DNA of 64,000 bases from Micromonospora okii (GTDB lineage: Bacteria > Actinomycetota > Actinomycetes > Mycobacteriales > Micromonosporaceae), in contig NZ_BBZF01000013.1 in the NCBI RefSeq assembly GCF_020884795.1, forward strand, positions 375,791 through 439,790. Direction: 5' to 3'. A program made the translations under genes and the position numbers. Positions 36,417 to 54,716 of this stretch are shown piece by piece; positions within the stretch are counted from its first letter, which is position 1; the number at the start of each line of letters is the position of its first letter. The notes beneath the pieces are model-generated. The model was not told the origin of the DNA, searched no databases, and worked only from the letters and a program-made list of their open reading frames with translations.

Positions 36417-36442
36417 GCCGACTCCCTCGCCAGACCGACCTA

Positions 36443-36452: not shown

Positions 36453-36463
36453 AGGCTAACGTA

Positions 36464-37273: not shown

Positions 37274-37278
37274 GCGGA

Positions 37279-38073
37279 TCACCGGGCCTTGGCGTAGCGG
37301 AGTTCGAGGCGGCGTACCACCTGGGACAGGGGGAGGGTGACGACCAGGTAGGCGAGGCCGGCCACCAGCAGTGGCGTGGCGTTCACCCGGTCGTTGAGCA
37401 TGTCCCGGCCGAACTTGGTGACCTCGATGGTCTGCGCCGTCACGCCCAGCACGTAGGCCAGCGACGAGTCCTTGGTGAGCAGGATGAGCTCGTTCGTCAG
37501 CGGCGGGATCACGATCCGGAACGCCTGCGGGACGACGATGGTGCGCATCGCGGTGACGTGCGACATGCCGAGGGTGCGCGCCGCCTCCATCTGCCCCTTC
37601 GGCACCGCCTGGATGCCGGCCCGGATGGTCTCGGCCATGTACGCCGAGGCGGTCAGCCCGAGCCCGATCGCGATCGCGCCGAACACGCCCCCCGGAATCT
37701 CCCGCTCCGGGAAGGCGATCGGGATGCCGTACCCGACGAGGAAGAGGACCAGCAGCGCGGGCAGCCCCCGGAACAGCTCGACGTAGGCCGTCGCCACCCA
37801 GCGGTAGGGGGCCACCCGGGACAGCCGCATCAGCGCGAGGAGGGTGCCGAGCACGAGGCCGAAGGCGAACGCCCCCAGCGTGTAGAGGATGGTGTTGCGC
37901 AGCGCGACGGTGATGATCGTCGGGAACATCGCCTCGACGATGTCGACGCGGAAGAACGCGGCTCTCAGCCGGCCCCAGTCCGCGGCGACGAGCACCGTGG
38001 CGACGACGGCGAGGAAGGCGAGGTACTGCAACCCGAGGGACAGCCGCTCGCGCTGGCGACGTCTGAGCCTCAT
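37279..38073 (-). CDS. Polar amino-acid ABC transporter permease
   Basis: Membrane subunit of the importer (HisM/GlnP family), 264 aa. About five to six helices, with the EAA-type loop region [23 protein letters not shown] and [17 protein letters not shown]. The ATG at 38073 overlaps the binding-protein stop by 4 nt; an upstream in-frame start at 38097 lies inside that gene. Only one permease gene is present, so it probably works as a homodimer. Confidence 0.92.
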
Positions 38074-38888
38074 CGGTTCGGTCGCCTGCCGATCCACCTC
38101 TCGTAGATCGAGTCGTAGGTGCCGTCCTGCCTGGCCCTGGCCAACACCTCGTCGATCTTTCTGAGCAGTTCCGGGTTGCCGTCCTTGCGCACCGAGAACC
38201 CGTACTGCTCGCCGGTGTCGAACTCGGCCGCCACCACGAAGCCGCCGGGGTTCTCCCGGATGTACTCCGCCCAGACCGGCAGGTCGTTGATGGCGGCCTC
38301 CACCTGGCCGTTGGCGAGGGCCTGCTGCTCGGCGGCGAGATCCTCGAACTCCACGAGCCGCAGGCCCTTCTCCTTCGCGAACCTGCGGGCGTAGTCACGG
38401 CCCGTCGTGGCCGCCTGGACGGCGACCTTCCTGCCGCGGAGGTCGTCCAGCGACCGGTACGTCTTGCCGGTCTTGACCAGCAGCGCCTGGGTGGCGTCGA
38501 AGTAGGGGGCGGAGAAGTCCATCACCTTCTGCCGCTCCGCGGTGATCGTCATGCCGGCGGCAGCCGCGTCGCACTTGCCCGTGTTCAGGTCCTGCCCGGA
38601 CTTGATCCCCTCGAACGGCGTGTCGACGATCGCCTGCTGGACGCCCAACTCCTTGGCGACCAGGTCCATCAGGTCGACGTCGAACCCGACGACCTTGCCG
38701 GTGGAGTCCTTGGACTGGAACGGCGCGTACGGCAGGTGGGTGCAGACGGTCAGCGTGCCCTTCTGCACGAGCCTGACCCCGCCTGCCTGAACCTCGCTCT
38801 CGTCCTTCTTGGCGCATCCCGCGATGGCGACCAGGGCGACCATCGTCACCAAGAAGCCGGCCTTCCGGGCCGGGCTGAGACAATTCAC
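38070..38888 (-). CDS. Polar amino-acid ABC transporter substrate-binding lipoprotein (family 3)
   Basis: Extracellular binding protein of the importer, 272 aa. The signal peptide ends in a lipobox VAIAGC, so it is lipid-anchored. The family 3 fold is shown by [59 protein letters not shown] and the late segment [27 protein letters not shown] at 38888 follows AAGGGA. The ligand is not predictable by eye. It may import a precursor amino acid for the adjacent cluster; this is inference from position only. Confidence 0.92.
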
Positions 38889-39344
38889 GGCGATGTCCCT
38901 TCGATTCCCCCGCAGATCGGGCAGTCAGGGTCGCAACAGGGGGACCGTACCCGATCAGGCGAGCCACACCTAGGCGAAATAACTATCTGCGGGAATCCCA
39001 TCCCGAATGTGGAAGATTCACCGACTGACGCCAATCTTCCTGACACGCCGACCCCATCCGCTTGACCGCAGATCAAGAACCTCGCCACCACCCCGACGGG
39101 CACCCGGACGACCACCCGCAGCGCCACACACCACCATTACTAAACGCGAAGCAGTCGGACATTATCGCTATGCCCTTTTCATCGCCGACAGACGATCGAC
39201 GCCTATGCATAGACAATTGACCAAGATCATAATTACCATCCGATGCAGTCAATGGGGACTTACCGATCTTGTCGGCCGCCCCTCGCGCCGGCAGGCCAGA
39301 GAACTGCTCGGGAGAGGTGCCCCCGTGGTCTCCTCAGCAACACG
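38889..39344. promoter_or_regulatory. A+T-enriched divergent control region of the biosynthetic cluster
   Basis: The 456-bp gap separates the importer operon (minus) from the biosynthetic operon (plus). Base composition falls sharply; 39181-39240 is 45% GC by my count, against well over 70% in the flanking genes. It contains a 10-bp palindrome CTATGCATAG (39203-39212) and a TTGACC hexamer at 39217-39222. A short open frame, best read from a GTG at 39325 with GGGAGAGG upstream, ends in a TGA overlapping the GTG start of the next gene. No regulator gene lies here. Confidence 0.6.
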
Positions 39345-42300
39345 GTGAAGATCTCCGCGACCGACGGCGCGAGCCGGAGCCCCGCCGAGGTCGGCGCCCT
39401 CCTCACCGGGCCCGTCCGGCCACGTCCGGTCGACATGACCGTGGTGGACCTCGTCGACCGGAGCGTCCGACGACACCCCGACGCCGTCGCGGTCGTCCAC
39501 CCGGCCGGCGCGTTGACGTACCGGGACGTGGACCGGCTCGCCGACACGGTGGCCGCCGACCTGCACGCCGTGGGCGCGGGCCGGGGTGGCTTCGTGGTGC
39601 TCCTGCTCGACGACCCGGTGGAGATCCTCGTCGCCATGCTCGGCACCATGCGCTCGGGCGCGGCCTTCGTGCCGTTCGACCGCGCCTGGCCGGCCCAGCG
39701 GCAGGCACGGATGCTCACCGGCCTCGGCCCGGCGGCGGTCCTCGGGCCCCACCCGCCGCCGGGCGGGTCCGCCGCGCCGGTGATCGGCGTACGGATCGGG
39801 CCGGGCCCGGCGCGGGCGCGCCCGCCCGCCACCCCGCCCCGGCCGGGGGACCCGATCTACGCCTTCTTCACCAGCGGCTCCACCGGCCTGCCGAAGTGCG
39901 CGGTCAACCTGCACCGGGGGCTGGTCAACCGCTTCCTGTCGATGACCGAACGGTTCGCCGCCGACGGCGACGTCGTCCTGCAGAACTCGGCGCACACCTT
40001 CGACTCGTCGATCTGGCAACTGCTGTGGCCGCTGACCCGCGGCGCCACCGTGGTCATTCCCGACCGCGGCGGAATCCTCGACTTCGACGCGACCCTGGCC
40101 CAGATCCACCGACACGGGGTCACCATGACCGACTTCGTGCCGAGCATCCTCGACCTGCTGGTCGAGCGGTTGCGAGGCCGGCCGCAGGACCGGCACCTGC
40201 TGGCCTCGCTGCGTCAGGTCTTCATCGGTGGCGAGGCCGCGAAGCCGCACACCGTGCAGGCCTTCCGACGGATGCTGCCGGGCCTGCGGGTGACCAACAC
40301 CTACGGCCCGACGGAGGCGTCGATCGGATCGGTCTTCCACGCCGTGGGTGACGCCGACCGGCAGGCCATCCCGCTCGGCCTGCCCCTGCCCAACACGTCC
40401 GTCCTGCTGCTCGACGAGCACGGCGACCCCACCCCACCCGGCGTCGTCGGGGAGATCCACCTCGCCGGCGTCTGCCTGGGCGCGGGCTACCACGGCGACG
40501 CCGAGCGGACCGCCCAGGTCTTCGTGCCGAACACGTACGCCGGCGTGCCGGGCGACCTGCTCTACCGCACCGGAGACTTCGGCTGGGTGCGCGAGGACGG
40601 GCTGTTGATGTTCAGCGGCCGCCGGGACGCCCAGGTCCAGATCGCCGGGGTCAGGGTGGACCTCGGCGAGGTGGAGCACGCGGTCACCACGCTGCCCGGC
40701 CTGCGCCAGGTGAAGGTGCTCGTCGACGAGGCCGGTGCCACGGCCGCCCTGGTCTGCTTCTACTCGGCGGACCGTGGGGTCACCGAGGCGGCACTGCGCG
40801 AGCACGCCGGTGCCACCCTGCCCGGCGCGCTGGTGCCGGCCCGGTTCGTCCGGCTCGCCGCCCTCCCGCTGCTCGCCAACGGCAAGGTGGATCAGGAACG
40901 ACTGCGCCGCCGGCTGACGGGTGTCGGCGGACGGACCGCCGACGCCGGGGCGGCGTACCCGCCGGAGAGCGTCGAGGCGCGGATCGCCGGGATCTGGACG
41001 CGGGTGCTTGGCCTCAGCACGTACGACGACGGCTTCTCCACCCTGGGCGGGACGTCGCTCGGCGCGGCCCGGCTGACGGTGGAGTTCGAACGCGCCTTCG
41101 GCGTCCGGCTGGACGTGCGCGACCTGCTCCGGGCCGCCACCATCCCCGCGCAGGCCGCGCTGGTCCGCCGGGGCGGGCCCCTGCCGCCGCCCACCGCCGC
41201 GCCGGGCGTACCGGCCGGGGACCTGCGGCTCGACGACCTGGGCCCGGCCCGCGCGCGGCGGGCCGGCGACCCGGGCGCGATCCTGCTGGTCGGCGCGACC
41301 GGCTTCATCGGCTCGCAGGTGCTCGCCGCCCTCGCGACGCGGGGTGACCGACCGGTCGTCTGCCTGGTCCGCGCCACCGACGACGAGGCCGCCCGGCACC
41401 GGGTGGCGACCGCGCTCGCGGCGGCCGGCCACCGGCGCGGGGAGACGTGCGGTTGGTCCGCCCTCGCCGGTGACCTGACCCGACCCCAGCTCGGGCTGAC
41501 CCCGCGCCAGTGGCGACGGCTCCACCGGGAGGTCGGCACGATCGTCGACGCCGGCGGCCACGTCGACACCCTCCGCGACTACGCCGACCTGCGGGCCACG
41601 AACGTCCACGGCCTGCGCACCCTCGTCCGGCTCGCCGGCACGCACATCCGCAAGAGGCTCATCTCCCTGTCGACGACGACGGTGCGCGGCGCTGCGGGCA
41701 CGCCGCTCGCGGAGTCCTTCCTGGCACCCTGGTCGACGCTTCCCGCCGACGGCTACAGCCAGTCCAAGTGGGTCGGCGAGCAGCTCGTGCGGGTTGCCGC
41801 CGAGCAGGGTGTCCCGGCCGCCGTCGTGCGGCTCGGCGAGGTGGCCCCGCACTCGCGCACCGGCCACGCCAACCCGCGCTCCTCGCTGACGATGCTCATG
41901 CGGCTCTGTCTGCGCCTCGGCGTGCGACCACCGACGTGCCTACGCGTCGACTGGACCCCTGTCGACGTGGTCGCCCGGATGGTGGCCGCGCTCACCGAAC
42001 CGCACCGTCCCGTCCCGCCCGGCGGCGTCCTGAACGCGGTGGCGCCCGGCTCGGTGCCCGTGGCCGACCTGCTCTCCCGGCTCCGCACCGGTTCCGGGGC
42101 GCTGCCGGAAGTGCCGTACGACCGGTTCCTCGACCGGGCCGCCGACGCGGTCGGCGATGACGAGACGGCTCGCTGCCTCGCTGTTCTTCGGCCCCGCAAC
42201 GCCGCGGAGTCCGACCCACTGGCCGGGGTGTGCCACGACGCCCTGGTCGGCACCGACACGATCCGGGCCGCTCGGCTGGCCCGGGAGCTGGGGCTCGCCT

Positions 42301-42407
42301 GGGACACGGGCCGGGGCCGGGAGATCGACACGATGATCGACCGTCTCGTCGGGACGCCTCCCCTGTCGGTGGATCGTTCGCACCTGTCCAGCGCGACCGC
42401 CCAGTGA
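39345..42407 (+). CDS. NRPS-like A-T-R protein: adenylation, carrier and thioester-reductase domains
   Basis: Likely activates an amino acid or other carboxylic acid, tethers it and releases it reductively as aldehyde or alcohol. From GTG 39345 (1020 aa) the adenylation domain spans about 20-520: TSGSTGLPK near 176, NTYGPTEAS near 317, YRTGDFGW, and NGKVD near 511. The carrier domain has LGGTSLGAARL with the phosphopantetheine Ser near 570. The reductase domain begins with GATGFIGS near 649 and has YSQSKWVGE near 803. The start is uncertain; the TGA of a short upstream frame overlaps this GTG. No condensation or thioesterase domain is present, so this resembles carboxylic-acid or aminoadipate reductases rather than a full NRPS. 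First gene of an eight-gene operon. Confidence 0.9.
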   Translation: MKISATDGASRSPAEVGALLTGPVRPRPVDMTVVDLVDRSVRRHPDAVAVVHPAGALTYRDVDRLADTVAADLHAVGAGRGGFVVLLLDDPVEILVAMLGTMRSGAAFVPFDRAWPAQRQARMLTGLGPAAVLGPHPPPGGSAAPVIGVRIGPGPARARPPATPPRPGDPIYAFFTSGSTGLPKCAVNLHRGLVNRFLSMTERFAADGDVVLQNSAHTFDSSIWQLLWPLTRGATVVIPDRGGILDFDATLAQIHRHGVTMTDFVPSILDLLVERLRGRPQDRHLLASLRQVFIGGEAAKPHTVQAFRRMLPGLRVTNTYGPTEASIGSVFHAVGDADRQAIPLGLPLPNTSVLLLDEHGDPTPPGVVGEIHLAGVCLGAGYHGDAERTAQVFVPNTYAGVPGDLLYRTGDFGWVREDGLLMFSGRRDAQVQIAGVRVDLGEVEHAVTTLPGLRQVKVLVDEAGATAALVCFYSADRGVTEAALREHAGATLPGALVPARFVRLAALPLLANGKVDQERLRRRLTGVGGRTADAGAAYPPESVEARIAGIWTRVLGLSTYDDGFSTLGGTSLGAARLTVEFERAFGVRLDVRDLLRAATIPAQAALVRRGGPLPPPTAAPGVPAGDLRLDDLGPARARRAGDPGAILLVGATGFIGSQVLAALATRGDRPVVCLVRATDDEAARHRVATALAAAGHRRGETCGWSALAGDLTRPQLGLTPRQWRRLHREVGTIVDAGGHVDTLRDYADLRATNVHGLRTLVRLAGTHIRKRLISLSTTTVRGAAGTPLAESFLAPWSTLPADGYSQSKWVGEQLVRVAAEQGVPAAVVRLGEVAPHSRTGHANPRSSLTMLMRLCLRLGVRPPTCLRVDWTPVDVVARMVAALTEPHRPVPPGGVLNAVAPGSVPVADLLSRLRTGSGALPEVPYDRFLDRAADAVGDDETARCLAVLRPRNAAESDPLAGVCHDALVGTDTIRAARLARELGLAWDTGRGREIDTMIDRLVGTPPLSVDRSHLSSATAQ

Positions 42408-42435
42408 AGCGCGGCCAACCGGTCCAGGAGACGCC

Positions 42436-43989
42436 ATGAAGGTCAACCTCTACTACGCCCCGTACCCCTCCCAGATCTTCCAGGGCGAGAGCGAGCCGAT
42501 CAACACCGAGCGGCCGCACAACCCCAAGAGCGCACTGACCACGATCGCCGCCGGCCTGCGCGCGTACGCGTCGCACTTCGGCTACTCCTGCGACATCGAG
42601 ATCGTCGATCTCCAGCTCGGCGGGGAGCGGGTGAAGTACAAGTCGCTGCCGTACGGCCCCCGCGTCATGGACTGTTTCCGGTACGGCACCCCGTTCGAGG
42701 AGGCCGACGAGAAGATCCGGTCGGCCGACGTGCACGGCATCACCTGCAACTTCACCAACAGCGCGCAGATCGTCGCCGACCTGGCCCGGCACATCAAGCG
42801 GGTCGACCCGAAGGCACTGGTCGTGGTGGGCGGGGTCGACTGCACCGCCCGCCCGCAGTACTACCTGGCCCGGGGCGCCGACGTCGTGGTGCGCGGCGAG
42901 GGCGAGCTGACCTTCGCGCGGGTCGTCGACGCGGTCAACCGGCGCCGGGACCTGGGCACGGTGCCGAACATCTCGCTGCCGGGCCGGCTGATCCCCACCA
43001 AGGTGGACACCTCCGAGACCGTGCCGATGGACTCGATCGAGCCGATGGCCCTGGACCTGGTCCCCGACCTGGCGGTCTACGACGACACCGCCGAGGGGCC
43101 GCCGCCGGAGGGCGTGCAGGGCAGCTTCATCTGCTGGGAGACGTCGCGGGGCTGCGCGTGGCGGTGCTCGTTCTGCACCGCGCCGTCCCGGGGCGGGTAC
43201 CGCTACATGAGCCTGCCGACGATGGAGAAACACCTGAAGACCTTCCAGGCGTACGGCATCAAGACGATCGTCTGGCAGGAGGACAACCCCCTCTCCCGCA
43301 TCCAGCAGAACGGCGCGGGGCGGTACCTGTACGACTCCGGGCGCGAGGAGGTCCTCGCGATGTTCCACATGTTCCGCGACCACGGCTTCGCCTGGGAGTT
43401 CGCCAACGGCATCGAGTTCGGCAAGTTCATGCAGGGCGGCACGTTCGACCACGAACTGGCCGAGGCCCTGCTCGGCAGCAAGATGGTCGACGGCCGGTGG
43501 GTCGGCTGCTACCGGGTGCAGATCCCGCTGGACAACATGAACGTGAAGAAGCGCCGGTTCCCCAAGCTGCTCGGCTTCGACGAGCAGGTGGACGTCCTGG
43601 CCACGATGCTCACCGACCACGGCGTCGGCCACCAGACGTACGACCTGTTCATCGGCTATCCCGAGCACGACCATGAGGGCATCGACATGTTCACCGACTA
43701 CTGCCTGCGGCTCAAGGAGGAGCTGACGGCGGTCGGGCGGGGCAGGTACCAGCCGTACTTCAACGTCTTCAACCTGTCGCTGCTGCCCGGCGCGCGGGAC
43801 TGGACCACCCTGCACCACCTGCTCCAGTTCGACATCGACGAGAACCCGGAGGTGATCGGGATCTTCCTGTCGGCCATCAACACCGAGCACTTCACCTACT
43901 GGGACATCTACCAGAAGCGCCTCGAGATGACGACCATGCTCAACGACCGCGAGATGCACCGTCTCTACGACGGCATCTACGCCGGCTGA
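42436..43989 (+). CDS. B12-binding-type radical SAM enzyme 1
   Basis: Predicted to use a 4Fe-4S cluster, S-adenosylmethionine and probably cobalamin, as in class B radical SAM methylases or rearrangement enzymes. The N-terminal ~200 residues have a cobalamin-binding-like Rossmann pattern (GITCNFTNSAQIV, VVVGGVDCTARPQYYL, ADVVVRGEGELTF). The radical SAM core starts with SRGCAWRCSFC, ligands C240, C244 and C247, followed by IKTIVWQEDNPLSRI and EFANGIEFGKFMQGG. It is 517 aa with AGGAG before the ATG. It is a paralogue of the next gene (shared PYPxQ, NPKSAL, NFTNSA, WEFANG and GCYRVQIPL). Reaction and substrate are unknown. Confidence 0.88.
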   Translation: MKVNLYYAPYPSQIFQGESEPINTERPHNPKSALTTIAAGLRAYASHFGYSCDIEIVDLQLGGERVKYKSLPYGPRVMDCFRYGTPFEEADEKIRSADVHGITCNFTNSAQIVADLARHIKRVDPKALVVVGGVDCTARPQYYLARGADVVVRGEGELTFARVVDAVNRRRDLGTVPNISLPGRLIPTKVDTSETVPMDSIEPMALDLVPDLAVYDDTAEGPPPEGVQGSFICWETSRGCAWRCSFCTAPSRGGYRYMSLPTMEKHLKTFQAYGIKTIVWQEDNPLSRIQQNGAGRYLYDSGREEVLAMFHMFRDHGFAWEFANGIEFGKFMQGGTFDHELAEALLGSKMVDGRWVGCYRVQIPLDNMNVKKRRFPKLLGFDEQVDVLATMLTDHGVGHQTYDLFIGYPEHDHEGIDMFTDYCLRLKEELTAVGRGRYQPYFNVFNLSLLPGARDWTTLHHLLQFDIDENPEVIGIFLSAINTEHFTYWDIYQKRLEMTTMLNDREMHRLYDGIYAG

Positions 43990-44005
43990 CGGGAAGGTTC
44001 CGGCC

Positions 44006-45583
44006 ATGCGCGTCACCCTGTTCTACGCCCCGTACCCGGGGCAGTCGTTCCGCGACGCGGACACCACCATCAGCCCGGTGCGCGTCCGCAACCCGAAGAG
44101 CGCCCTCGTCACGCTGGCCGCCGGCACTCGCGCCTACCTGCGGGAATGGGGGGTCGAGGCGGAGTTCAGGATCGTCGACACCCAGGTCGACGCCGGCGAG
44201 CCGGTGCACTACGCCTCGTTCCGGTACGGACCGCGCACGGTCGACTGCCACCGCTACGGCGGCGCGTTCGAGGCGTACGCCGACGAGGCCCGCGCCGCCG
44301 ACGTCATCGGGATCTCGAACAACTTCACCAATTCGGCGCGTGTGGTGACCGACTTCGCCAAGTTCCTCAAGCAGGCCAACCCGGAGGCGCTGATGGTCGG
44401 CGGCGGGATGGACGTCACCGCCCGGCCGGAGTGGTACCTGGCCAACGGCTTCGACGTGGTGATCCAGCTCGAGGGCGAGCAGACCTTCGCCCGGCTGATC
44501 CAGGCCCGGGCGACCGGCAGGCCCGTCGAGGAGACGGTGCTGACCCGGCGGGTCGGCGACGGCTTGGTGATCATGGGCGGCCCCCAGCTCAACCTGGCCG
44601 AGCTGCCGCCCATGGCGCTCGACCTGATCGACGACCTGTCGGTGTACGACGACACCGGCGAGGGGCAGCCACCGGCGACCGTGCGCGCGCCCTTCACCTG
44701 CTTCGAGACCTCGCGCGGCTGCTACCGCACCTGCTCGTTCTGCGCGACCCCGATGCGGGGGCACTACCGCTACATGAAGCCGGACGTGGTCCGCCGGCAC
44801 CTTGAGCACCTCAGGTCGATGGGCATCTCGAACATCCTCTTCCAGGAGGACAACACGCTGTCCCGGATCCAACGGTCGGGGCGGGGCACGCTGCTGCACG
44901 ACAGCGGGCGGGAGGACACCCTGGAGATCTTCCGGATCGCCCGCGAGATGGGGTTCTCCTGGGAGTTCGCCAACGGCCTCGAATTCGGCAAGTTCCTCGA
45001 CCTGGGCGAGGTCGACCGGGAGCTGATGGAGACCCTGTTCTGGAACGACACCAGCGGCGACCGCTGGATCGGCTGCTACCGGGTGCAGATCCCTTTGGAA
45101 TACCTCGGTGACGAGCCCACCAAGAAGTTCAACAAGCTGCGGCCGTTCCAGGAGCAGATGCGGATCATCACGTCGATGCTGGACCTCGGCGTGCGGTACC
45201 TCACCTTCAACATGCTGATCGGGCACGACGACGACGACCTGCCGATGATCGACATGTATCTCGACCGGTGCCTGGAGCTCAAGGAGAGGCTCACCGAGAC
45301 CAGCTCCGAGGCGATCAACTACTTCAATGTCTTCAACCGGACACTGCTGCCGGGAACAGCGGACTTCCGCAAGAAGGCCGATCGGCTATCGTTCGACATC
45401 GAGGAAACGCCGGAGGTGATCAGCGTCTATCTCTCGCCGATGCCCTCGAAACACCTGTCGTACTATGAGCTGTTCGAGCAACGCCTCCGCCTCACCGAGG
45501 CGCTGAACGGTTCGCTGATCGACCAGTACGACGGGATCTACCGACCGGGAACCACGCAGAAGGAGTCCGTCCCCGTTGTCTGA
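44006..45583 (+). CDS. B12-binding-type radical SAM enzyme 2
   Basis: A 525-aa paralogue of the upstream enzyme, starting MRVTLFYAPYPGQSFRD. It has the same layout: N-terminal cobalamin-binding-like fold (GISNNFTNSARVV, MVGGGMDVTARPEWYL, FDVVIQLEGEQTF) and radical SAM core at SRGCYRTCSFC, ligands C239, C243 and C246, then ILFQEDNTLSRI and WEFANGLEFGKFL. The Cys motif spacing is canonical CX3CX2C. Divergence in the substrate-facing C-terminal third suggests the two act on different positions or at different steps. GGAAGG precedes the ATG; the gap to the first enzyme is 16 nt. Confidence 0.88.
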   Translation: MRVTLFYAPYPGQSFRDADTTISPVRVRNPKSALVTLAAGTRAYLREWGVEAEFRIVDTQVDAGEPVHYASFRYGPRTVDCHRYGGAFEAYADEARAADVIGISNNFTNSARVVTDFAKFLKQANPEALMVGGGMDVTARPEWYLANGFDVVIQLEGEQTFARLIQARATGRPVEETVLTRRVGDGLVIMGGPQLNLAELPPMALDLIDDLSVYDDTGEGQPPATVRAPFTCFETSRGCYRTCSFCATPMRGHYRYMKPDVVRRHLEHLRSMGISNILFQEDNTLSRIQRSGRGTLLHDSGREDTLEIFRIAREMGFSWEFANGLEFGKFLDLGEVDRELMETLFWNDTSGDRWIGCYRVQIPLEYLGDEPTKKFNKLRPFQEQMRIITSMLDLGVRYLTFNMLIGHDDDDLPMIDMYLDRCLELKERLTETSSEAINYFNVFNRTLLPGTADFRKKADRLSFDIEETPEVISVYLSPMPSKHLSYYELFEQRLRLTEALNGSLIDQYDGIYRPGTTQKESVPVV

Positions 45584-45594
45584 GCTGGGCACCA

Positions 45595-46857
45595 GTGTCG
45601 CTGGGTGAAGCCGTCGGGCGCTACGCCGCGCTCTGGCGCACGCCCGGCGTTCCCCGGGTGATGTTGCCCGCCATGCTCGCCCGGCTGCCGGTGGCCATCG
45701 AACCGCTCGCGATCTTCCTGCACATCAGCGCCGAGACCGGCTCCTACCCGGCCGGCGCGACGGCCCTCGGCGTGTTCTCCGCCGCGCTCGCGGTCGCCTG
45801 GCCGCTGCACGGCCGGCTCATCGACCGGCGCGGGCTGCGGGGCGTGCTGCTGGCGCTGGCGGCCCTGCACTCGGCGGCGCTGGCCGGGTTCGTCGCCGTG
45901 CGTGACGGCCCGGCCTGGCTGCTGGTGGCGTCGGTGGCGCCCGTGGCGCTCACCCTGGCCCCGGTCGGCTCGACCGTCCGCGCGGCCTGGGCGCTGATCC
46001 TCCCGCCCGGGCCGGCGCTGAACACCGCCAACGCCCTGGAGGCGGTGCTGGTCGAGGTCTTCTTCGTGATCGGGCCGGCAGCGACCGGCCTGCTGACCGG
46101 CTCCTTCAGCGCCCTCACCACCACGCTGCTGGCCGGCGGCATGCTGGTCGTCGGCTCCCTCCTGTACGGCACCGCGCCGGCGCTCTCGACGCGACGCCCG
46201 GAGGCCGGCCGGTCCGGGCCGGCCGGCCCGGCGCGCGGAGCCGAGCGCGGTCGGGGCGACGTGCGCCCCTGGCGGGTTCCCGGCGTCGTGGCGATCATGG
46301 TGGCCGCCGGCGGTGCGGCCGCGGCCTTCGCCGTACTCGAGGTCACGGTGCCCGCGAGCGTCGCGGCGCGCGGCGACTCGGCCGCGACGGGCGTGGCGCT
46401 GCTGTCGATACCGCCGGCGGCCAGCGTCCTCGGCGGCCTGGTCTACGGGGCCCGGCGGCACACCCGGCTGCCGATCCACCGGTACCTCGTGCTGCTGGCG
46501 GTGGCGTTCGCCTGCATGGTTCCGCTGGTCTTCGCCAGCTCGGTCGCGGTGCTCGCCGCGTGTCTGTTCCTCGCGGGCCTGCCGCTGGCGGCGCTCAGCT
46601 CGGAGGAGTTCGGGTTGCTCGGCAGCCTGGTGCCCAAATCCGTGATCAACGAGTCGTTCGCGCTGGCCGCGACGATGATGGCGGTGGGCAGCGCCGCCGG
46701 AACGCTGGCGGCCGGTGCCGTCCTGGGCGAAATCGGTCCCATGACGGCGCGCGTGCTGTCTCCGGTGGCCGCGTTCGTCGCATTCGCGGCCGTCCTGCTG
46801 GTGCGGGGCACGCTGAGCCGCGTCGACGACCTGGTCGGCGCGGAGAGCCGACAGTGA
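45595..46857 (+). CDS. MFS transporter, probable exporter
   Basis: A 420-aa Major Facilitator protein with about twelve hydrophobic helices and a central basic loop (STRRPEAGRSGPAGPARGAERGRGD) between the two halves. The motif-A-like loop LHGRLIDRRGLRG after helix 2 is recognisable. GTG at 45595 lies 11 nt after the previous stop. Position in the operon suggests export of the product or self-protection. The specific substrate cannot be predicted. Confidence 0.85.
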   Translation: MSLGEAVGRYAALWRTPGVPRVMLPAMLARLPVAIEPLAIFLHISAETGSYPAGATALGVFSAALAVAWPLHGRLIDRRGLRGVLLALAALHSAALAGFVAVRDGPAWLLVASVAPVALTLAPVGSTVRAAWALILPPGPALNTANALEAVLVEVFFVIGPAATGLLTGSFSALTTTLLAGGMLVVGSLLYGTAPALSTRRPEAGRSGPAGPARGAERGRGDVRPWRVPGVVAIMVAAGGAAAAFAVLEVTVPASVAARGDSAATGVALLSIPPAASVLGGLVYGARRHTRLPIHRYLVLLAVAFACMVPLVFASSVAVLAACLFLAGLPLAALSSEEFGLLGSLVPKSVINESFALAATMMAVGSAAGTLAAGAVLGEIGPMTARVLSPVAAFVAFAAVLLVRGTLSRVDDLVGAESRQ

Positions 46858-46910
46858 CGTTCCGCCCCGCCGGCCGGCGGGGCGGGAGGTGAGACGACGG
46901 GGGGGGATCA

Positions 46911-48236
46911 GTGAGCGACTACCACGGCGCTCGCAGCACGGGGGTGACCGCGCCGGAAGCGCTGGGCCGGCACCGGGCGGACGACGCGGGAGAGGTCGTC
47001 GTGATCGTCGACCCGTTCTCGACCGGCGCCCTGCTGGCACCCGCGTTCGCCCGGCACGGCCGGCGCTGCGTCGCGGTGCTCAGCGGCACGATCAACGAGA
47101 GGTACGCCGCCGGTCTCCGCGCGGACGACTTCCTGACCGTGCTGACCGCTCCGGGCGACTCCCCGCACGCCGTCCGTCACCTCGCCGAGCTCCTCGCCCC
47201 GGCGCGCCCCGCCGAGGTGCTCGCGGGAAGCGAGTGGGGCGTCAACCTGGCCGACGACCTCGCCGACGCGCTGGGGCTGCCCGGCAACGCCCGTTCGGCC
47301 GACCGCCCCCGGCGGGACAAGCCCGCGATGATGAGGGCGGTGGGCGGCGCGGGGCTGCGGGTGCCGCTCGGCGCGCCGGTGCGCAGCGTGGCGGAGCTCG
47401 CCGACTGGCTGGCCTCGACGCGGGTGCTGCCGGTGGTGGTGAAGCCCGTGTCCAGCGCCGGCTCCGAGGGGGTGCACTTCTGTGCGGACGCGGAACAGGC
47501 GCGGGCGGCCACGGCGAGGCTGCTCGGCACGACGGACGCCATGGGTCAGCCCATCGAGTCGGTGCTGGTGCAGGAGCAGCTCGTCGGTCAGCAGTACTTC
47601 GTCAACAGCGTGAGCCTCGACGGCCGGCACCACATCCACGAGGTTTGGCAGGACGACCGGTTCTTCGTCGACGGGCGGCCCGTGTACGACCGCCAGGTGC
47701 TGCTCGACGGCAGCGGCGACACCCAGAAGCTGCTGGGCAGGTTCGTCGAGGAGGTGCTGGACGCGCTCGGGGTGCGCAACGGGCCGGCCCACACCGAACT
47801 CCTCGTCGACGACCGGGGCCCGGTGCTGATCGAGTCCGGGGCCCGGCTGGAGGGCGGCGTCACCCCGGCCGGCCCCGAGCGGGCGACCGGCGAGAGCCAA
47901 CTCTCGCTGACCGTCGAACGCTACGTCGCTCCGGACCGCTTCGCCCGCCGGATCGGCCGGGGTTACCAGCGGCAGCGGGCCATGACGGTCGTCTGCCTGG
48001 TCGCGCCGCACGACGGTCTCGTCGCCGACGGCGCGGCGGAACGGCTGGCCGCCCTGCCGTCGGTCTTCTGCGGATCGGCGCTGGACCTGCGGCCGGGCAC
48101 CCCGGTGCGCAGGACGGTGGATCTGTTCACCTCGCCCGGTCATCTCTACCTGATCGCCGACGATCCGGCCCGGTTGGAGGAGGACTACCAGCGAATTCGC
48201 GCCCTGGAGACGAACGCCCTGTACGGGTACAGGTAG
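46911..48236 (+). CDS. ATP-grasp amino-acid/peptide ligase
   Basis: Predicted to form an amide bond through an acyl-phosphate intermediate, like L-amino-acid ligases. Residues about 25-130 form the preATP-grasp Rossmann domain (VVVIVDPFSTGALLAPAF). The ATP-grasp core has the Lys in LPVVVKPVSSAGSEGVHFC, the adenine-binding segment VLVQEQLVGQQYFV, and metal ligands in GPAHTELLVDDRGPVLIE plus SGARLEGG. It is 441 aa. GTG at 46911 follows a G-rich ribosome site. It could join the radical-SAM-modified amino acid to a second amino acid; that is inference. Confidence 0.88.
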   Translation: MSDYHGARSTGVTAPEALGRHRADDAGEVVVIVDPFSTGALLAPAFARHGRRCVAVLSGTINERYAAGLRADDFLTVLTAPGDSPHAVRHLAELLAPARPAEVLAGSEWGVNLADDLADALGLPGNARSADRPRRDKPAMMRAVGGAGLRVPLGAPVRSVAELADWLASTRVLPVVVKPVSSAGSEGVHFCADAEQARAATARLLGTTDAMGQPIESVLVQEQLVGQQYFVNSVSLDGRHHIHEVWQDDRFFVDGRPVYDRQVLLDGSGDTQKLLGRFVEEVLDALGVRNGPAHTELLVDDRGPVLIESGARLEGGVTPAGPERATGESQLSLTVERYVAPDRFARRIGRGYQRQRAMTVVCLVAPHDGLVADGAAERLAALPSVFCGSALDLRPGTPVRRTVDLFTSPGHLYLIADDPARLEEDYQRIRALETNALYGYR

Positions 48237-48295
48237 CGGTGGATCTTCGTTGAGTTGGCGATATCCTGATCGCTTATCTGCTGAATGAGGATCCA

Positions 48296-49612
48296 ATGGA
48301 CGAATTCACTTATCGCGACGGCTCGCTGTGGTGCGAGGGGGTATCGCTGACCTCGGTCGCCAACCGGTTCGGCACCCCCACGTACGTGTACTCCGCGAAC
48401 ACCCTGATCGACCACTACCGCCGTTTCGCGAAGGCCTTCGACGCGGTCAACCCGCTGATCTGCTTTTCGGCGAAGGCGCTGAGCAACGTGCATCTCCTGC
48501 GGTTGTTGGGCCAGGAGGGCGCCGGCATCGACGCGGTGAGCGGCGGTGAACTGCACCGGGCCACGGTGGCGGGCATCGATCCCGAGCGCACCGTGCTGGC
48601 CGGGGTGGGCAAATCCGAGGACGAGCTTCGCGACGCCGTGCGCAGAAAGATCCGCTGCATCAACGTCGAGTCCGAGGCGGAGGTGGAACTGCTGTCCCGG
48701 ATCGCGCGGGAGGAGGGCGAGCGCCCACGGCTGGCGATCCGCGTCAACCCGGATGTCGCTCCGGACCAGCGCACCCCGGCCCGGACCACCACCGGCACCC
48801 GGGGCGGCAAGTTCGGCGTGGACATCGAGCGCGCCGCGGCGCTCTTCGCGCACGCCGCCGCCGACCGGTCGCTACGCATCGAGGGCTTCCACGTCCACCT
48901 CGGCAGCCCGATCTTCGACCCCCAGGTGTACGCCACCGCGCTGGACCGCCTGCTCGGCCTCGTGGCCCGGCTGGAGGCCGAGGGGCACCGCATCACCACC
49001 CTCAACCTCGGCGGCGGCTTCCCCGCCGAGTACGTCGACCGCACCGCGCCGAGCTGGGACGACTTCGCCGAGGTGATCGTGCACCGGCTCGCCGGGTTCC
49101 GCCGCGGCGGCGGCCAGGTGATCTTCGAGCCGGGGCGGACCATCGCCGCCAACGCCGGCATCCTGCTCAGCACGGTCCGCTACCTCAAGCAGGCCGGCGA
49201 CCAGCAGCTCGCCGTGATCGACGCGGGCATGACCCACCTGGCCCGGGCGGCCATGTACGACAGCTACCACTTCATGTGGCCGGTGCTGCCCCCGGCGGAG
49301 GCCGTGCCGGTCTCCCGCGACGTGTCGGGCCTCGCGGGCCTGACGGCGTACGACGTGGTGGGCCCGATCTGCGAGTCCAGCGACTACCTGGCCCGGGGCC
49401 GGTCGCTGCCGGTGCTGGCGGCCGGCGACCACCTGGCGATCTTCACCGCCGGGGCCTACGGCATGACGATGACCAGCAACTACAACAGCCAGCTCCGGCC
49501 GGCCGAGGTGCTGGTCCAGGGCGACCAGGTGACGCTGGTCCGGCGGCGGGAGACGTACGCCGACCTGGTGGCCCTGGAACTGCTCGACACCAGCGACCAC
49601 CGGGACGGGTGA
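48296..49612 (+). CDS. PLP-dependent decarboxylase, diaminopimelate decarboxylase (LysA) fold
   Basis: Fold type III enzyme decarboxylating a D-configured or diamino acid; meso-diaminopimelate is the family substrate but a modified analogue is likely here. PLP Lys60 lies in FSAKALSN (the common form is YAxKAN). Other motifs: FHVHLGSPI, LNLGGGFPAEY, FEPGRTIAANAG, active-site CESSD (Cys359-Glu360) and GAYGMTMTSNYNSQLRP. It is 438 aa with GAGGA before the ATG. It is not next to lysine genes, and housekeeping lysA would be expected elsewhere in the genome. The stop overlaps the next ATG by one base. Confidence 0.9.
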   Translation: MDEFTYRDGSLWCEGVSLTSVANRFGTPTYVYSANTLIDHYRRFAKAFDAVNPLICFSAKALSNVHLLRLLGQEGAGIDAVSGGELHRATVAGIDPERTVLAGVGKSEDELRDAVRRKIRCINVESEAEVELLSRIAREEGERPRLAIRVNPDVAPDQRTPARTTTGTRGGKFGVDIERAAALFAHAAADRSLRIEGFHVHLGSPIFDPQVYATALDRLLGLVARLEAEGHRITTLNLGGGFPAEYVDRTAPSWDDFAEVIVHRLAGFRRGGGQVIFEPGRTIAANAGILLSTVRYLKQAGDQQLAVIDAGMTHLARAAMYDSYHFMWPVLPPAEAVPVSRDVSGLAGLTAYDVVGPICESSDYLARGRSLPVLAAGDHLAIFTAGAYGMTMTSNYNSQLRPAEVLVQGDQVTLVRRRETYADLVALELLDTSDHRDG

Positions 49613-50802
49613 TGGACGGCGACGTGTCGGTCACGGCCCTGCGATCGGTCGCCGAGATCGGCGAGGACCAGTGGAACAGCCTCGCCGAGGGCAACGGGTT
49701 CTACCTGGGCTACCCCTGGATGGCCTGGGCCGAGACCGACCCGTCGTTCGTCACCACCTACCTGGTCGCCCGGGACGCCACGGGAGCCGTGCTGGCGGCG
49801 GTGGCGACCTACCTCTGGGGCGGCGTGAGCGTGCCGTCGATGAACCTGGCGTACAGCCCGGGCCACATCTGCGAGGAGAACCTGGGCCGGCCGCTGTCGC
49901 CCGATGAACACGCGTCCTTCCTGCCGGCCCTGCTGGTGGGCTCGCGGGCCGGCTACCACGGCGCCGTCGCGATCTCCGCCGCGCTCACCGCCGACCGGCG
50001 GGACGCGGTGCTCACCGCGATCTTCACCGAGGTGGAGGCGCTGGCCGCGCGGCTCGGCGCGGCCAGCGTCGCCCTGCTCTACACCCCGGCCGCGAACGCC
50101 CCGGCCTACCGGGCCGCCTGGGACCGGGCGGTCGGCCCGTCCGGCCGCGGCCCGGTGGCCGCGCCGCTCTCCGCCGAGGCGGTGCTGACCGCGCCCGGGC
50201 GCGGAGCCTCCGAGCGGGCGGCCGAGGCCGCGCAGCGGCGGGAGTGGCGGCGCGAACAGCGGCGGTACGACGCCACGGTGGACCGGGTCGAGACGGCGCG
50301 GCTCTCCGAGTGCGTCGACGTGGTCGCGCCGCTGCTCGGTGCCACCCAACGCAAGTACGGCGGGCCGGACACCGACGCCGCCATGCACCACTACTTCGCC
50401 TCGCAGGTGCCGGCGCTCGACGCGTACAGCCACGTGCTCCTGGAGTACGCCGGCGACGCCGTCGTGGGGTTCAGCCTGAACTACCTGTGGCACGACGGGG
50501 TGTACGTCCGCGCCGCCGGGTTCACCGAGCGGGCCGCTCCGTACTCGTACTTCAACCTGACGATGTACCGGCCCCGGGAGCTGGCGGCGGCGCGCGGGCT
50601 TGCCTCGGTGCACCTCGGGGCCGGCACCTACGGCGCGAAGCGCGCCCGGGGCGCCGAGCCGCGCTGGACGGCGGGGCTGGTCCGGCCGCCGGTGGGCGTC
50701 TCCGCCGAGCTGGCGCGTGCCTTCGCCGTTCCCGGCTCCGACCACCGGCAGGCGGTGCGGACCTGGGGAGAGGACGTCCCCGCCCCGCGACCAGAGAGGT
50801 GA
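49612..50802 (+). CDS. FemAB/GNAT-like protein (peptidogalycan biosynthesis type, PF04339-like)
   Basis: A 396-aa double-GNAT-fold protein. Relatives include acyl transferases and tRNA-dependent aminoacyl transferases; the actual donor here is unknown. Recognisable parts are FYLGYPWMAWAETDP near the N-terminus, YSPGHICEENLG, RREWRREQRRYDATV in the middle, GFSLNYLWHDGVYVRAAG, YSYFNLTMYRP and the family-typical LHLG-like end (SVHLGAGTYGAKRARG). The ATG at 49612 overlaps the decarboxylase stop by one base (TGATG). It could acylate or aminoacylate the pathway amine formed by the decarboxylase. Confidence 0.78.
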   Translation: MDGDVSVTALRSVAEIGEDQWNSLAEGNGFYLGYPWMAWAETDPSFVTTYLVARDATGAVLAAVATYLWGGVSVPSMNLAYSPGHICEENLGRPLSPDEHASFLPALLVGSRAGYHGAVAISAALTADRRDAVLTAIFTEVEALAARLGAASVALLYTPAANAPAYRAAWDRAVGPSGRGPVAAPLSAEAVLTAPGRGASERAAEAAQRREWRREQRRYDATVDRVETARLSECVDVVAPLLGATQRKYGGPDTDAAMHHYFASQVPALDAYSHVLLEYAGDAVVGFSLNYLWHDGVYVRAAGFTERAAPYSYFNLTMYRPRELAAARGLASVHLGAGTYGAKRARGAEPRWTAGLVRPPVGVSAELARAFAVPGSDHRQAVRTWGEDVPAPRPER

Positions 50803-50805
50803 CCC

Positions 50806-51789
50806 ATGCGCTACCGCAGGTTCGGCCGGTTGGGCTGGCAGATCAGCGAGGTCTCGTACGGCATGTGGGGGGTCGGCGGTGGCCTCCACGGCTGGACCGG
50901 CGTCGACGAGGACGAGAAGTTCGCCGCCCTCCAGCGGGCCGTCGACCTCGGCTGCAACCTCTTCGACACGGCCTGGATCTACGGTCGCGGGCACAGCGAG
51001 CGGCTGTTGGGCGAGCTGGTCCGGGCCAACCCGGGCACCCGGCTGCACGTGGCCACCAAGGTGCCGCCCAAGGACCTGCGCTGGCCGTCGACCCGCGCGT
51101 CGGCCCTGGACGACGTCTTCCCGCCCGACCACATCGAGGAGTACGTCCACAGGAGCCTCGACAACCTGGGCCTGGAGTCGATCGACCTGCTCCAGTTGCA
51201 CGTCTGGGAGGACTCGTGGGCGGACGACCCGCGCTGGCAGCGGACGCTCACCGGGCTGCGTGACCAGGGCCTGATCGGCGGGATCGGCATCTCGGTCAAC
51301 CGCTGGGAGCCGTGGAACGGCGTACGGGCGGTCGGGACCGGTCTCGTCGACGCCGTCCAGGTCATCTACAACATCTTCGACCAGGATCCGGAGGACGAGT
51401 TGTTCCCGGCGGCGGTGGAGCACGACGTCGCGGTCATCGCCCGGGTCCCCTTCGACGAGGGCACCCTCACCGGCACGCTGACCCTCGACTCGACCTGGCC
51501 GGAGGGCGACTGGCGGAACTCGTACTTCGTGCCGGAGAACCTTGCCGCGAGCGTGGCCAGGGCGGAGGCGCTGCGCGCGGACCTGCCCGCCGGGATGTCG
51601 ATGCCGGAGGCGGCGCTGCGCTTCGTCCTGGCGGACCCGAGGGTCTGCACCACCATCCCCGGGATGCGTCGGGTTCCGCACGTCGAGGCCAACACCGCCG
51701 TGAGCGACGGGCAGCCGCTCGACCCGGGCGTGCTGGCGGCCCTGCGTCGGCACCGCTGGTCGCGGCAGCCGACCTGGTGGTCGCAGTAG
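50806..51789 (+). CDS. Aldo/keto reductase
   Basis: NADPH-dependent reductase of the AKR (TIM-barrel) superfamily, 327 aa. Motifs: RRFGRLGWQISEVSYGMW, DLGCNLFDTAWIYGRGHSERLLGE with catalytic Asp and Tyr, TKVPPKD with Lys, LQLHVWED with His, and the C-terminal nucleotide-binding ALRFVLADPRVCTTIPGMR. GAGAGG precedes the ATG, 3 nt after the previous stop. It is the last gene of the operon; it may reduce an aldehyde released by the reductase domain of the A-T-R protein. Confidence 0.92.
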   Translation: MRYRRFGRLGWQISEVSYGMWGVGGGLHGWTGVDEDEKFAALQRAVDLGCNLFDTAWIYGRGHSERLLGELVRANPGTRLHVATKVPPKDLRWPSTRASALDDVFPPDHIEEYVHRSLDNLGLESIDLLQLHVWEDSWADDPRWQRTLTGLRDQGLIGGIGISVNRWEPWNGVRAVGTGLVDAVQVIYNIFDQDPEDELFPAAVEHDVAVIARVPFDEGTLTGTLTLDSTWPEGDWRNSYFVPENLAASVARAEALRADLPAGMSMPEAALRFVLADPRVCTTIPGMRRVPHVEANTAVSDGQPLDPGVLAALRRHRWSRQPTWWSQ

Positions 51790-51792
51790 CGA

Positions 51793-51829
51793 CGGTGGAG
51801 GGGCCGGCACGCCGCCGGCCCCTCCACCG
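51793..51829. terminator. Strong bidirectional terminator ending the biosynthetic operon
   Basis: A perfect 16-bp stem CGGTGGAGGGGCCGGC (51793-51808) and its complement (51814-51829) enclose loop ACGCC. It lies between the plus-strand aldo/keto reductase gene and the convergent HMG-CoA lyase gene. Confidence 0.9.
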
Positions 51830-51841
51830 CTTCCCGAACCG

Positions 51842-52762
51842 TCAGGCCGGCAGCGGCGTCAGCCGGGTGCGCGGGCCCGCCCGCAGGACGCCGGAGGGGA
51901 GCTTCTTGCCGAGCAGGTGCTCGGCCAGCTCCGCCGCCTCGACGAGGGCCGCCAGGTCGATGCCGGTGTCGATGCCCATGTCGTGCAGCATGTGCACCGC
52001 CTCCTCGGTGGCCAGGTTGCCGCTGGCCCCCGGCGCGTACGGGCAGCCGCCGAGGCCGCCGACGCTGGCGTCGAACTCGGTCACCCCCAGCTCCAGCGCG
52101 GTCAGCAGGTTGGCCAGCGCCGCGCCCCGGGTGTTGTGGAAGTGCAGCAGCACGGGGACGTGCGCGTTGCGGTCGCGTACCGCGCCGACCAGCTCGCGGA
52201 CCCGGCGGGGCGTGCCCATGCCCGTGGTGTCGCCGAACGCGACCCGGTCCGCGCCGTCGCGGACCACCCGGTCGACGATGCCGGCGACCCGCGCAGGGTC
52301 GACGTCCCCCTCGTACGGGCAGCCGAAGCTGGTCGCCACGATCACCTCGGCGGTCGCGCCGGCGCCGTGCAGCAGGTCGATCAGCTCGGCGATGTCGTCG
52401 AGCGACTCGGCGGTCGACCGGTTGACGTTGCGCCGGTTGTGCGTGTCGCTGGCCGAGACCACCACCTCGATCTCGGTGAACCCGGCCGCCAGGGCGCGCT
52501 GCGCGCCCCGGGTGTTCGGCACCAGCGCCGAGTAGCGCACCCCGGGGGCCTTCGCGGCCCGCCGCCACACCTCGTCGGCGTCGGCCATCTGCGGGATGGC
52601 CCTGGGGTGCACGAACGACACGGCCTCGATCCGGCCGACCCCCGTGCCGGAGAGGGCGTCGATCAGCCGCACCTTGGCGTCGGTCGGGATCGGCTCCTCG
52701 TTCTGGAGCCCGTCGCGGGGCCCGACCTCCCGGATCGAGACCGCCGCTGGCATCTGGCTCAT
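51842..52762 (-). CDS. Hydroxymethylglutaryl-CoA lyase
   Basis: Cleaves HMG-CoA to acetoacetate and acetyl-CoA, the last step of leucine breakdown. The 306-aa protein has the catalytic Arg/Asp motif REVGPRDGLQNE, metal and substrate residues in SFVHPRAIPQMADA, ATSFGCPYEG, HFHNTRG and the C-terminal Cys motif GGLGGCPYAPGASGN. The start is placed at ATG 52762, which has GAGG 5 nt upstream; a GTG two codons earlier is possible. It sits between the biosynthetic operon terminator and a regulator segment, 15 kb from accD1. Confidence 0.93.
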   Translation of the reverse strand: MSQMPAAVSIREVGPRDGLQNEEPIPTDAKVRLIDALSGTGVGRIEAVSFVHPRAIPQMADADEVWRRAAKAPGVRYSALVPNTRGAQRALAAGFTEIEVVVSASDTHNRRNVNRSTAESLDDIAELIDLLHGAGATAEVIVATSFGCPYEGDVDPARVAGIVDRVVRDGADRVAFGDTTGMGTPRRVRELVGAVRDRNAHVPVLLHFHNTRGAALANLLTALELGVTEFDASVGGLGGCPYAPGASGNLATEEAVHMLHDMGIDTGIDLAALVEAAELAEHLLGKKLPSGVLRAGPRTRLTPLPA

Positions 52763-53187
52763 GGTCACCTCGCTGTGACGTCGGGCCGCCCGGGTACCGC
52801 CGCGCCGCCGCCCCTCGTGGGGGCGGCCCGCGTGCGACGCCGGACGGCCGGTGGTCCCCCCAGGGAACCAGAACCCCGGGGCGACCCGCCAGGGCCGGGC
52901 CGAGCGGCGAGGCCGGGCGCGCCGAGGGCCGAGGCCCGGCGGCCCCTACCCGGCCGCGCGACCAGGGGATCGGACCTGCTGTGCGTCCGCCTTTCGCCGC
53001 AGTGGCCCTTCCGGCCGACTGCGGAAGCACGTTGGTCGCACCGGGAGTCCGTACGGTCGGAACCACCCTGCCGTGCCGATCGGGAGTCCCGCCGGATCGT
53101 TGCGTTGAGGACGGCCCAACCGCCAGGGCGGGCCGCAGCGGCGAGGCGCCGGGCACCGACCCGACACCTCGCCACCGCCTCCGGGGA
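52763..53187. other. Intergenic region without recognised gene
   Basis: This 425-bp stretch upstream of the HMG-CoA lyase gene shows only Arg/Pro/Gly-rich open frames in all phases and no convincing ribosome sites or hairpins beyond what GC-rich sequence gives by chance. It may hold the lyase promoter. Confidence 0.4.
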
Positions 53188-53397
53188 TCAGGGCTGCGAC
53201 GGTCCTTCCAAGAGCTCCGCAGCGCTCCGGAGCGCCGCCGAGAGGACGCCGGCGCACGCGGCGGCGTCCTCTCGGCCCAGGAGCACGGCCAGGGCCGCCG
53301 CCCCGTCGACGCCCGCCGACACCGCCCGGAGTCCCCGGGCCGCCCCGGGACGCGCGGCCCGGCGCCGGGCGCCGTCGATCTGTCTTCCTCTTGTCAT
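53188..53397 (-). CDS. Small hypothetical protein
   Basis: A 69-aa candidate gene. The ATG at 53397 is preceded by GGGTGG. The N-terminus is basic (MTRGRQIDGARRRAARPG) and the C-terminal half is Ala/Leu-rich and helical (ALAVLLGREDAAACAGVL, ALRSAAELLEGPS). The sequence encoding ELLEGP is repeated in inverted orientation at 53751-53768. A palindromic operator candidate lies just upstream of the start. It is divergent from the gene at 53798. No family is recognised. Confidence 0.45.
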   Translation of the reverse strand: MTRGRQIDGARRRAARPGAARGLRAVSAGVDGAAALAVLLGREDAAACAGVLSAALRSAAELLEGPSQP

Positions 53398-53768: not shown

Positions 53769-53797
53769 TGTGACCGCCCCCGATCCTGGAAGGAACG

Positions 53798-54637: not shown

Positions 54638-54639
54638 CC

Positions 54640-54676
54640 AGGGGGTTCGCGTCGGCGGGCGAGCCGCGAACCCCCT
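54640..54676. terminator. Bidirectional terminator
   Basis: A perfect 12-bp stem AGGGGGTTCGCG (54640-54651) pairs with CGCGAACCCCCT (54665-54676). It lies between the convergent genes at 53798-54637 and 54717-56054. Confidence 0.85.
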
Positions 54677-54716
54677 GTCGGGGCGGCGGCCCCGGCCGCG
54701 ACTCCCGGTCGGAACG

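Follow-up and report, generated by a model that had tools for sequence, protein, structure and literature searches.

An eight-gene cluster of Micromonospora okii that may direct a small peptide with a radical-modified lysine- or diaminopimelate-type residue

What might be made by a set of genes that places an adenylation–carrier–thioester reductase (A-T-R) protein beside two B12-binding radical S-adenosylmethionine (SAM) enzymes, an ATP-grasp ligase, a LysA-type decarboxylase and a FemAB-like protein? Such a set lies in a 64,000-nucleotide stretch of Micromonospora okii DNA (contig NZ_BBZF01000013.1, positions 375,791–439,790 of the forward strand), referred to below as the window; the source genome comprises 6.44 Mb in 36 contigs. 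The block is read here as a dedicated cluster, carried on one 15.4-kb insertion, for a small peptide with a radical-modified lysine- or diaminopimelate (DAP)-type residue that would be released reductively. This reading is given an even chance of being correct. As far as the searches go, known kinds of enzyme are combined here in a set of which no description was found; the literature search, which covered mostly the open literature and not MIBiG, returned no pathway with this gene set.

Gene content, conservation and insertion boundaries

Gene content and conservation were observed directly. Eight tightly spaced, co-directional genes had been proposed at 39345–51789, and all eight were found there on one strand and in the proposed order (Table 1), with successive intergenic gaps of 28, 16, 11, 53, 59, −4 and 3 bp. 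The domain assignments of the original prediction were all supported by domain searches, the FemAB-like protein being the weakest case (PF13480 35.3 against a cut-off of 22; PF04339 25.6 against 27). A longer ATP-grasp open reading frame (ORF) in another frame, 46889–48253, was rejected as spurious, having no Pfam or NCBIfam match; the true frame encodes 441 aa. The start of the FemAB-like gene lies near 49609 rather than at 49276. In pairwise comparisons between carriers (M. tarensis paired with the window only, and omitted for four genes), the ratio of non-synonymous to synonymous substitution rates (dN/dS) ranges from 0.07 to 0.40. Such values reflect selection against amino-acid change and so support coding, and the genes look maintained. 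Ratios in window comparisons are somewhat above those of other pairs for most genes.

The question of whether these genes travel together, raised with the original prediction, was answered by comparative genomics: the set recurs in six further genomes, four of Micromonospora and two of Streptomyces, giving seven carriers in two genera with the window included. An alignment of the radical SAM pair was scanned against 84,980 genomes, one per bacterial or archaeal species, by means of two peptide patterns only, so that relatives may have been missed. The scan returned 16 loci, six with full-length relatives and ten with partial ones (26–34%) in metagenome bins. The cluster accompanies five of the six full-length relatives (in M. 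tarensis, M. alfalfae, M. acroterricola, Streptomyces sp. ODS25 and S. harenosi), and Micromonospora G1127, met through a search with the leader described below, has all eight genes. The five Micromonospora carriers, the window among them, hold the cluster at one and the same site. In ODS25 the genes for the A-T-R protein, both radical SAM enzymes, LysA-type enzyme, ligase, FemAB-like protein and aldo/keto reductase (AKR) stand in another order and on both strands, together with a major facilitator superfamily (MFS) gene and an amino-acid permease gene; the window MFS protein has no match there (E 1e-10). The S. harenosi locus resembles that of ODS25. Since order and strand are reshuffled in Streptomyces, the co-occurrence is not mere synteny. 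Full-length radical SAM relatives were found in two of 300 Micromonosporaceae genomes, the source genome included, the other 137 matching genomes reaching 61 bits at most, and in one of 396 genomes across the phylum, which is the source genome itself. The gene set is rare.

The ligase and FemAB-like genes of M. tarensis appear frameshifted (L043:15428–16672 and 18046–19220), and draft errors are possible. The sixth full-length relative, from Ruminiclostridium hungatei, is a single radical SAM gene (46% identity) in a quite different neighbourhood (L048:3534–20323), where genes were seen for an aminotransferase, a methyltransferase, a LanM-like protein, a C39-peptidase ATP-binding cassette (ABC) transporter and a protein weakly matching a daptide RiPP recognition element (RRE). 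This is perhaps a cluster for a ribosomally synthesised and post-translationally modified peptide (RiPP).

The boundaries of the block were observed by comparison with the empty site. The 3-hydroxy-3-methylglutaryl (HMG)-CoA-lyase-like gene to the right of the block was searched for in 41 Micromonospora genomes, of which 30 gave a locus (the source genome and 29 others) and 11 gave none. For 26 of the 29 others the site is empty, with the carboxyl-transferase gene inside the 1.5-kb flank of the lyase gene; it is filled in two, M. acroterricola and M. alfalfae, and in one there is no carboxyl-transferase gene in that flank. From its gene content, we take the host locus to be one of leucine/isovalerate degradation. 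The comparison implies an insertion of about 15.4 kb (36417–51841) that includes a divergent ABC transporter of the polar amino-acid type. The unit as originally delimited was therefore right in its genes and too small, since the transporter at 36464–38888 shares the insertion. No match to its ATPase and permease was found in the loci of M. acroterricola, M. tarensis, M. alfalfae and G1127 (E 1e-10); the substrate-binding protein is the only part of the transporter found beside the cluster in these four carriers.

Table 1. Features of the inserted block and of the genes next to it (window positions)
Feature	Position	Strand	Basis or remark
Carboxyl-transferase, MccB-like, left of block	34884–36416		Adjoins acyl-CoA dehydrogenase
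ABC transporter ATPase, polar amino-acid type	36464–37282	−	Pfam ABC_tran; GlnQ/TcyN-like NCBIfam, below cut-off
ABC permease, polar amino-acid type	37279–38073	−	BPD_transp_1; TIGR01726 over cut-off
Amino-acid substrate-binding protein	38070–38888	−	SBP_bac_3
Promoter-like site TAGACA-18-TACCAT	39210–39239	+	Pattern match, 0.1 expected
Conserved leader, promoter-like site to A-T-R start	39241–39344	+	Aligned in four, then five carriers
A-T-R protein (adenylation, carrier, NAD(P)-dependent thioester reductase)	39345–42407	+	TIGR01733, TIGR01746, PF00550; alternative start 39243
B12-binding radical SAM enzyme 1, 517 aa	42436–43989	+	PF02310 and PF04055 over cut-off
B12-binding radical SAM enzyme 2, 525 aa	44006–45583	+	PF02310 and PF04055 over cut-off; CxxxCxxC
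MFS transporter	45595–46857	+	PF07690 51.1 against 33.4
ATP-grasp L-amino-acid-ligase-like enzyme	46911–48236	+	PF13535 over cut-off; PDB 30vh
DAP-decarboxylase-type pyridoxal phosphate (PLP) enzyme	48296–49612	+	TIGR01048 over cut-off; motifs kept
FemAB/GNAT-like protein, putative aminoacyl transferase	49609–50802	+	PF13480 over, PF04339 just below cut-off
Aldo/keto reductase	50806–51789	+	PF00248 167.5 against 24
Perfect 16-bp inverted repeat, loop 5	51793–51808 / 51814–51829		Between two convergent genes
HMG-CoA-lyase-like protein, right of block	51842–52762		
Biotin carboxylase	54717–56054		After HMG-CoA-lyase-like gene

Predicted activities of the cluster enzymes

Domains and motifs are intact throughout the chain of the A-T-R protein, in which the adenylation, carrier and thioester-reductase domains all score over cut-off (TIGR01733 339.7 against 317.4, PF00550 41.6 against 20.8 and TIGR01746 220 against 213.35). 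The carrier serine (LGGTS) and the reductase YxxxK are kept in all six aligned orthologues, as is the adenylation-domain pocket D-S-W-D-F/L-G-T-I-G with its one F/L difference, its positions being read by eye with GrsA numbering. Identity between genera is 40–43%; retention of the pocket despite this suggests that the same acid is probably loaded in all carriers. The A-T-R order is shared with the MxcG-type protein (myxochelin), which is also the best-scoring NCBIfam model (439 bits); unlike MxcG, the window protein lies far below the equivalog cut-off of 2300, and no condensation domain was found in it.

The two radical SAM enzymes are 48% identical to each other and exceed the cut-offs of PF02310 (49.4 and 47.3 against 32.1) and PF04055 (38.7 and 41.5 against 29.5). 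The CxxxCxxC cysteines of enzyme 1, C240/C244/C247, are invariant in the alignment. The layout of cobalamin-binding and radical SAM domains is that of TokK and CysS, and the closest sequence in the PDB is TokK (E 2.4e-8; profile 5.2e-9); however, the similarity is limited to about 165 residues and every listed subfamily cut-off is missed. The NCBIfam B12-radical-SAM models listed, 16 and 13 in number (KedN5, PhpK, RiPP C-methyltransferase and others), all score far below their cut-offs, TIGR04479 for example with 51.7 against 600.

The LysA-type enzyme scores 419.4 against a cut-off of 297.9 with the TIGR01048 equivalog. The PLP lysine and the motifs EPGR, R..xY, CES[SGT]D and GAY..SxYN occur in all four aligned cluster copies and in the presumed housekeeping copy, and the DAP decarboxylases of the PDB carry like motifs. 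In DAP decarboxylases, both ends of DAP are bound by these residues, and the predicted substrate is accordingly DAP or a closely DAP-like compound. The second lysA of the genome adjoins what appears, read by eye, to be a homoserine dehydrogenase gene.

The ligase matches PF13535 (48.2 against 27), and its closest solved relative is PDB 30vh, an 'L-amino acid ligase' (E 2.3e-61, residues 28–434). Its AlphaFold model is weak (pLDDT 61.9, pTM 0.36); ATP-grasp ligases were among the structural matches listed and 30vh was not, the best of these ligases being 4fu0 (Z 13.0, rmsd 3.0, 160 residues), with 3vot at Z 10.8 and rmsd 20.9. The ligase gene of M. acroterricola, M. alfalfae, M. tarensis and G1127 encodes an extra N-terminal FemAB-like domain of about 310 residues, whose Pfam matches are weak (18.9 and 19.3 bits, below cut-off). 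As read by eye, the window ligase keeps the first residues of this domain and then runs straight into the ligase (46911–47010). In M. acroterricola (L045:14477–15436), an 11-bp direct repeat, GGTCGTCGTGA, flanks the piece absent from the window; the copies are separated by 861 bp, a distance divisible by three, and such an arrangement would account for a clean deletion that keeps the frame. Should the N-terminal domain add a residue, the product of the window strain would be one residue shorter. Relaxed selection on the ligase after the loss was considered, its dN/dS being 0.33 and 0.25 in window comparisons against 0.15 between M. acroterricola and M. alfalfae, and was rejected, as the MFS, AKR, A-T-R and both radical SAM genes are likewise raised. 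In the FemAB-like protein, K344 near the C-terminus is invariant in five homologues and is possibly the counterpart of the catalytic Lys305 of FemX and Lys329 of DhpH-C.

The only FemAB-like profile match in S. harenosi lies on a separate contig (L097:1071–13539, contig C877) in a tight run of genes. These encode a HalD-family enzyme (PF23169, BesD/HalB family), two methyltransferases, a LysA-fold decarboxylase, an ATP-grasp ligase, an aminotransferase, a FemAB-like and a second FemAB-like protein, an MFS transporter and two TldD/PmbA proteins. The ligase, both FemAB-like proteins and a distant LysA-fold enzyme are common to this run and the cluster (identities of 49% for the ligase, 38–41% for the FemAB-like and 39% for the second FemAB-like protein), whereas the HalD-family enzyme, the methyltransferases, the aminotransferase and the TldD/PmbA proteins replace the radical SAM enzymes, the A-T-R protein and the AKR. 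The transporter shares 38% identity with its counterpart in the ODS25 cluster. Against the PDB, the HalD-family enzyme comes nearest to Halogenase B with 197 bits, and scores 171 with Halogenase D, 142–148 with lysine halogenases and 141 with lysine hydroxylases. A literature search for this second cluster found no apparent description. The presence of a predicted lysine/ornithine-type halogenase, or hydroxylase, next to a like ligase/FemAB kit lends circumstantial support to a lysine-type core residue in the window cluster.

Possible route and competing explanations

A modified amino acid or dipeptide, reductive release, finishing by the AKR and export by the MFS protein were the chemistry originally proposed, and this remains the most natural reading of the enzymes. 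Substrates, order of steps and product are all predicted from enzyme type. A DAP- or lysine-type amino acid would be modified by the two radical SAM enzymes, with C-methylation as the default guess, and the LysA-type enzyme would decarboxylate the modified residue at its D-centre. The ATP-grasp ligase and the FemAB-like protein, the latter with an aminoacyl-tRNA donor, might then add one residue each. The A-T-R protein would load the acid on its carrier domain and release it reductively as an aldehyde or alcohol; the AKR could carry the reduction further, and the MFS protein would export the product. In its most specific form, where the radical SAM pair alters the skeleton of meso-DAP or lysine and the LysA-type enzyme then tailors modified DAP to a C-branched lysine, which is condensed by the ATP-grasp and FemAB-like enzymes and released as an amino aldehyde or alcohol, the proposal is tentative and on the whole unlikely.

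We know of no precedent for such a route to branched lysines. Likewise, to our knowledge, none of the small-molecule pathways with FemABX-like proteins combines a B12 radical SAM pair, a LysA-type enzyme and an A-T-R protein. An ATP-grasp enzyme makes the amide in another peptide pathway, that of bacilysin. A FemABX-like protein is likewise part of small-molecule clusters (PMC12945691), and the belactosin and cystargolide pathways have an ATP-grasp enzyme that forms an amide in a small peptide (PMC11427300); the warhead chemistry described there is different, and the window cluster has an A-T-R protein and two radical SAM enzymes.

Several points speak against a dedicated cluster of this kind. 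None of the eight genes has a known substrate or product, and the adenylation-domain code fits no assignable specificity. As all subfamily models were missed, C-methylation is a default guess only and the model scores are not a test of it. A search of the PDB with the FemAB-like profile found no FemX up to E 10. The S. harenosi halogenase also matches lysine hydroxylases and so need not halogenate, the LysA homologue beside it is distant (30%), and the cluster locus of that species has no FemAB-like gene, the sole match being in the other run. Finally, the LysA-type enzyme may just supply lysine.

This last point leads to an explanation that accepts the same kind of cluster: the LysA paralogue would boost the supply of L-lysine, and the targets of the radical SAM enzymes would be another residue or the completed peptide. 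The motifs checked are indeed kept as in a true DAP decarboxylase; the cluster LysA, however, is a distinct lineage, only 35% identical to the presumed housekeeping enzyme and kept in all seven carriers. We consider this explanation clearly less probable than its negation. A butirosin-like arrangement, in which the substrate of the decarboxylase is an aminoacyl group attached to the A-T-R carrier and the ATP-grasp enzyme does the loading, would suit the presence of a carrier domain and an ATP-grasp enzyme, and the PDB holds a homologue in BtrK (7ru7, E 3.8e-45; 2j66, E 5.1e-45). It is nevertheless improbable: the best DAP decarboxylase outranks BtrK by 338 to 157–158 bits, the distal-group motifs are kept, and the carrier has an adenylation domain of its own.

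A RiPP pathway, in which the radical SAM pair would work on a precursor peptide, appears most improbable. It is favoured by the R. hungatei relative, the only full-length one outside the actinobacteria, which lies near a LanM-like enzyme, a C39-peptidase transporter and the weak daptide-RRE match. Inside the operon, however, gaps of 59 bp or less leave no room for a precursor gene; an ORF just upstream, 39007–39348, is not intact in other carriers (the downstream side was not searched); and genes of the A-T-R, ATP-grasp and LysA kinds do not usually belong to RiPP clusters.

Control region, surrounding DNA and the wider family

A control region had been proposed at the front of the operon and is borne out as a GC-poor stretch: GC content is 59.6% over the 456 bp that precede the first gene, against 69–79% across the window. 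The promoter-like pair TAGACA and TAC[CG]AT is kept with identical spacing in all five Micromonospora carriers, by alignments read by eye. The leader of about 100 nt matches no Rfam family, its sole match being mir-2217 at chance level (19.5 bits, gathering 60). RNAalifold on four leader sequences gave 28 pairs, three with compensatory changes. A reading as a structured RNA or riboswitch was nevertheless rejected, since the fifth carrier breaks four of the eight outer-helix pairs and single-sequence folding of four sequences did no better than that of shuffles (z 0.14, 0.50, −0.25 and 0.02). The upstream ORF overlaps the promoter-like site; it matches other carriers in pieces only, a stop or frame change breaking it there. 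Of the 16-bp terminator proposed at the end of the operon, the perfect inverted repeat is present and a T-run is not.

To the right of the insertion, 52783–54715 and 56103–58160 have no match in the M. acroterricola stretch compared. The former contains an ORF without Pfam match (53749–54423) and the latter a gene for a DUF5753 protein (56408–57190). Further on, at 58855–63468 on the minus strand, a TPR-rich protein of 938 aa adjoins a 595-aa HATPase/HSP90-like protein.

Homologues of the FemAB-like protein occur in at least 67 of 394 Streptomycetaceae genomes (E ≤ 1e-20), a lower bound as four first-look candidates were scored per genome. In 40 of their neighbourhoods, tblastn (E ≤ 1e-8) found neither a radical SAM relative nor a LysA-type gene, and these homologues were dropped as a route to more such clusters. 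The second FemAB-like domain has homologues in 18 of 394 and nine of 300 genomes (E ≤ 1e-15). Of 25 neighbourhoods (27 less that of the M. acroterricola cluster and a partial match), 16 have an ATP-grasp gene at a distance of 6 kb or less, a proximity that, having no background rate for comparison, is only suggestive. One Streptomyces neighbourhood (L153:2867–10512) encodes, by Pfam, a radical SAM protein, DUF1152, two ATP-grasp enzymes, an MFS protein and a FemAB-like protein; another (L156:3010–10498) has DUF1152, ATP-grasp and FemAB-like genes as in the first, and in several others an ATP-grasp gene stands at a similar distance from the FemAB-like gene.

The comparison with the second S. 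harenosi cluster suggests an interchangeable module, in which one ligase/FemAB kit is combined with different radical modifications of residues that are perhaps lysine-type. In the window cluster, two unassigned B12-binding radical SAM enzymes meet four enzymes that can readily be assayed, the ligase, the decarboxylase, the A-T-R protein and the AKR. Knowing which substrate the decarboxylase or the adenylation domain takes would pin down the role of the radical enzymes, which is usually the hard part.

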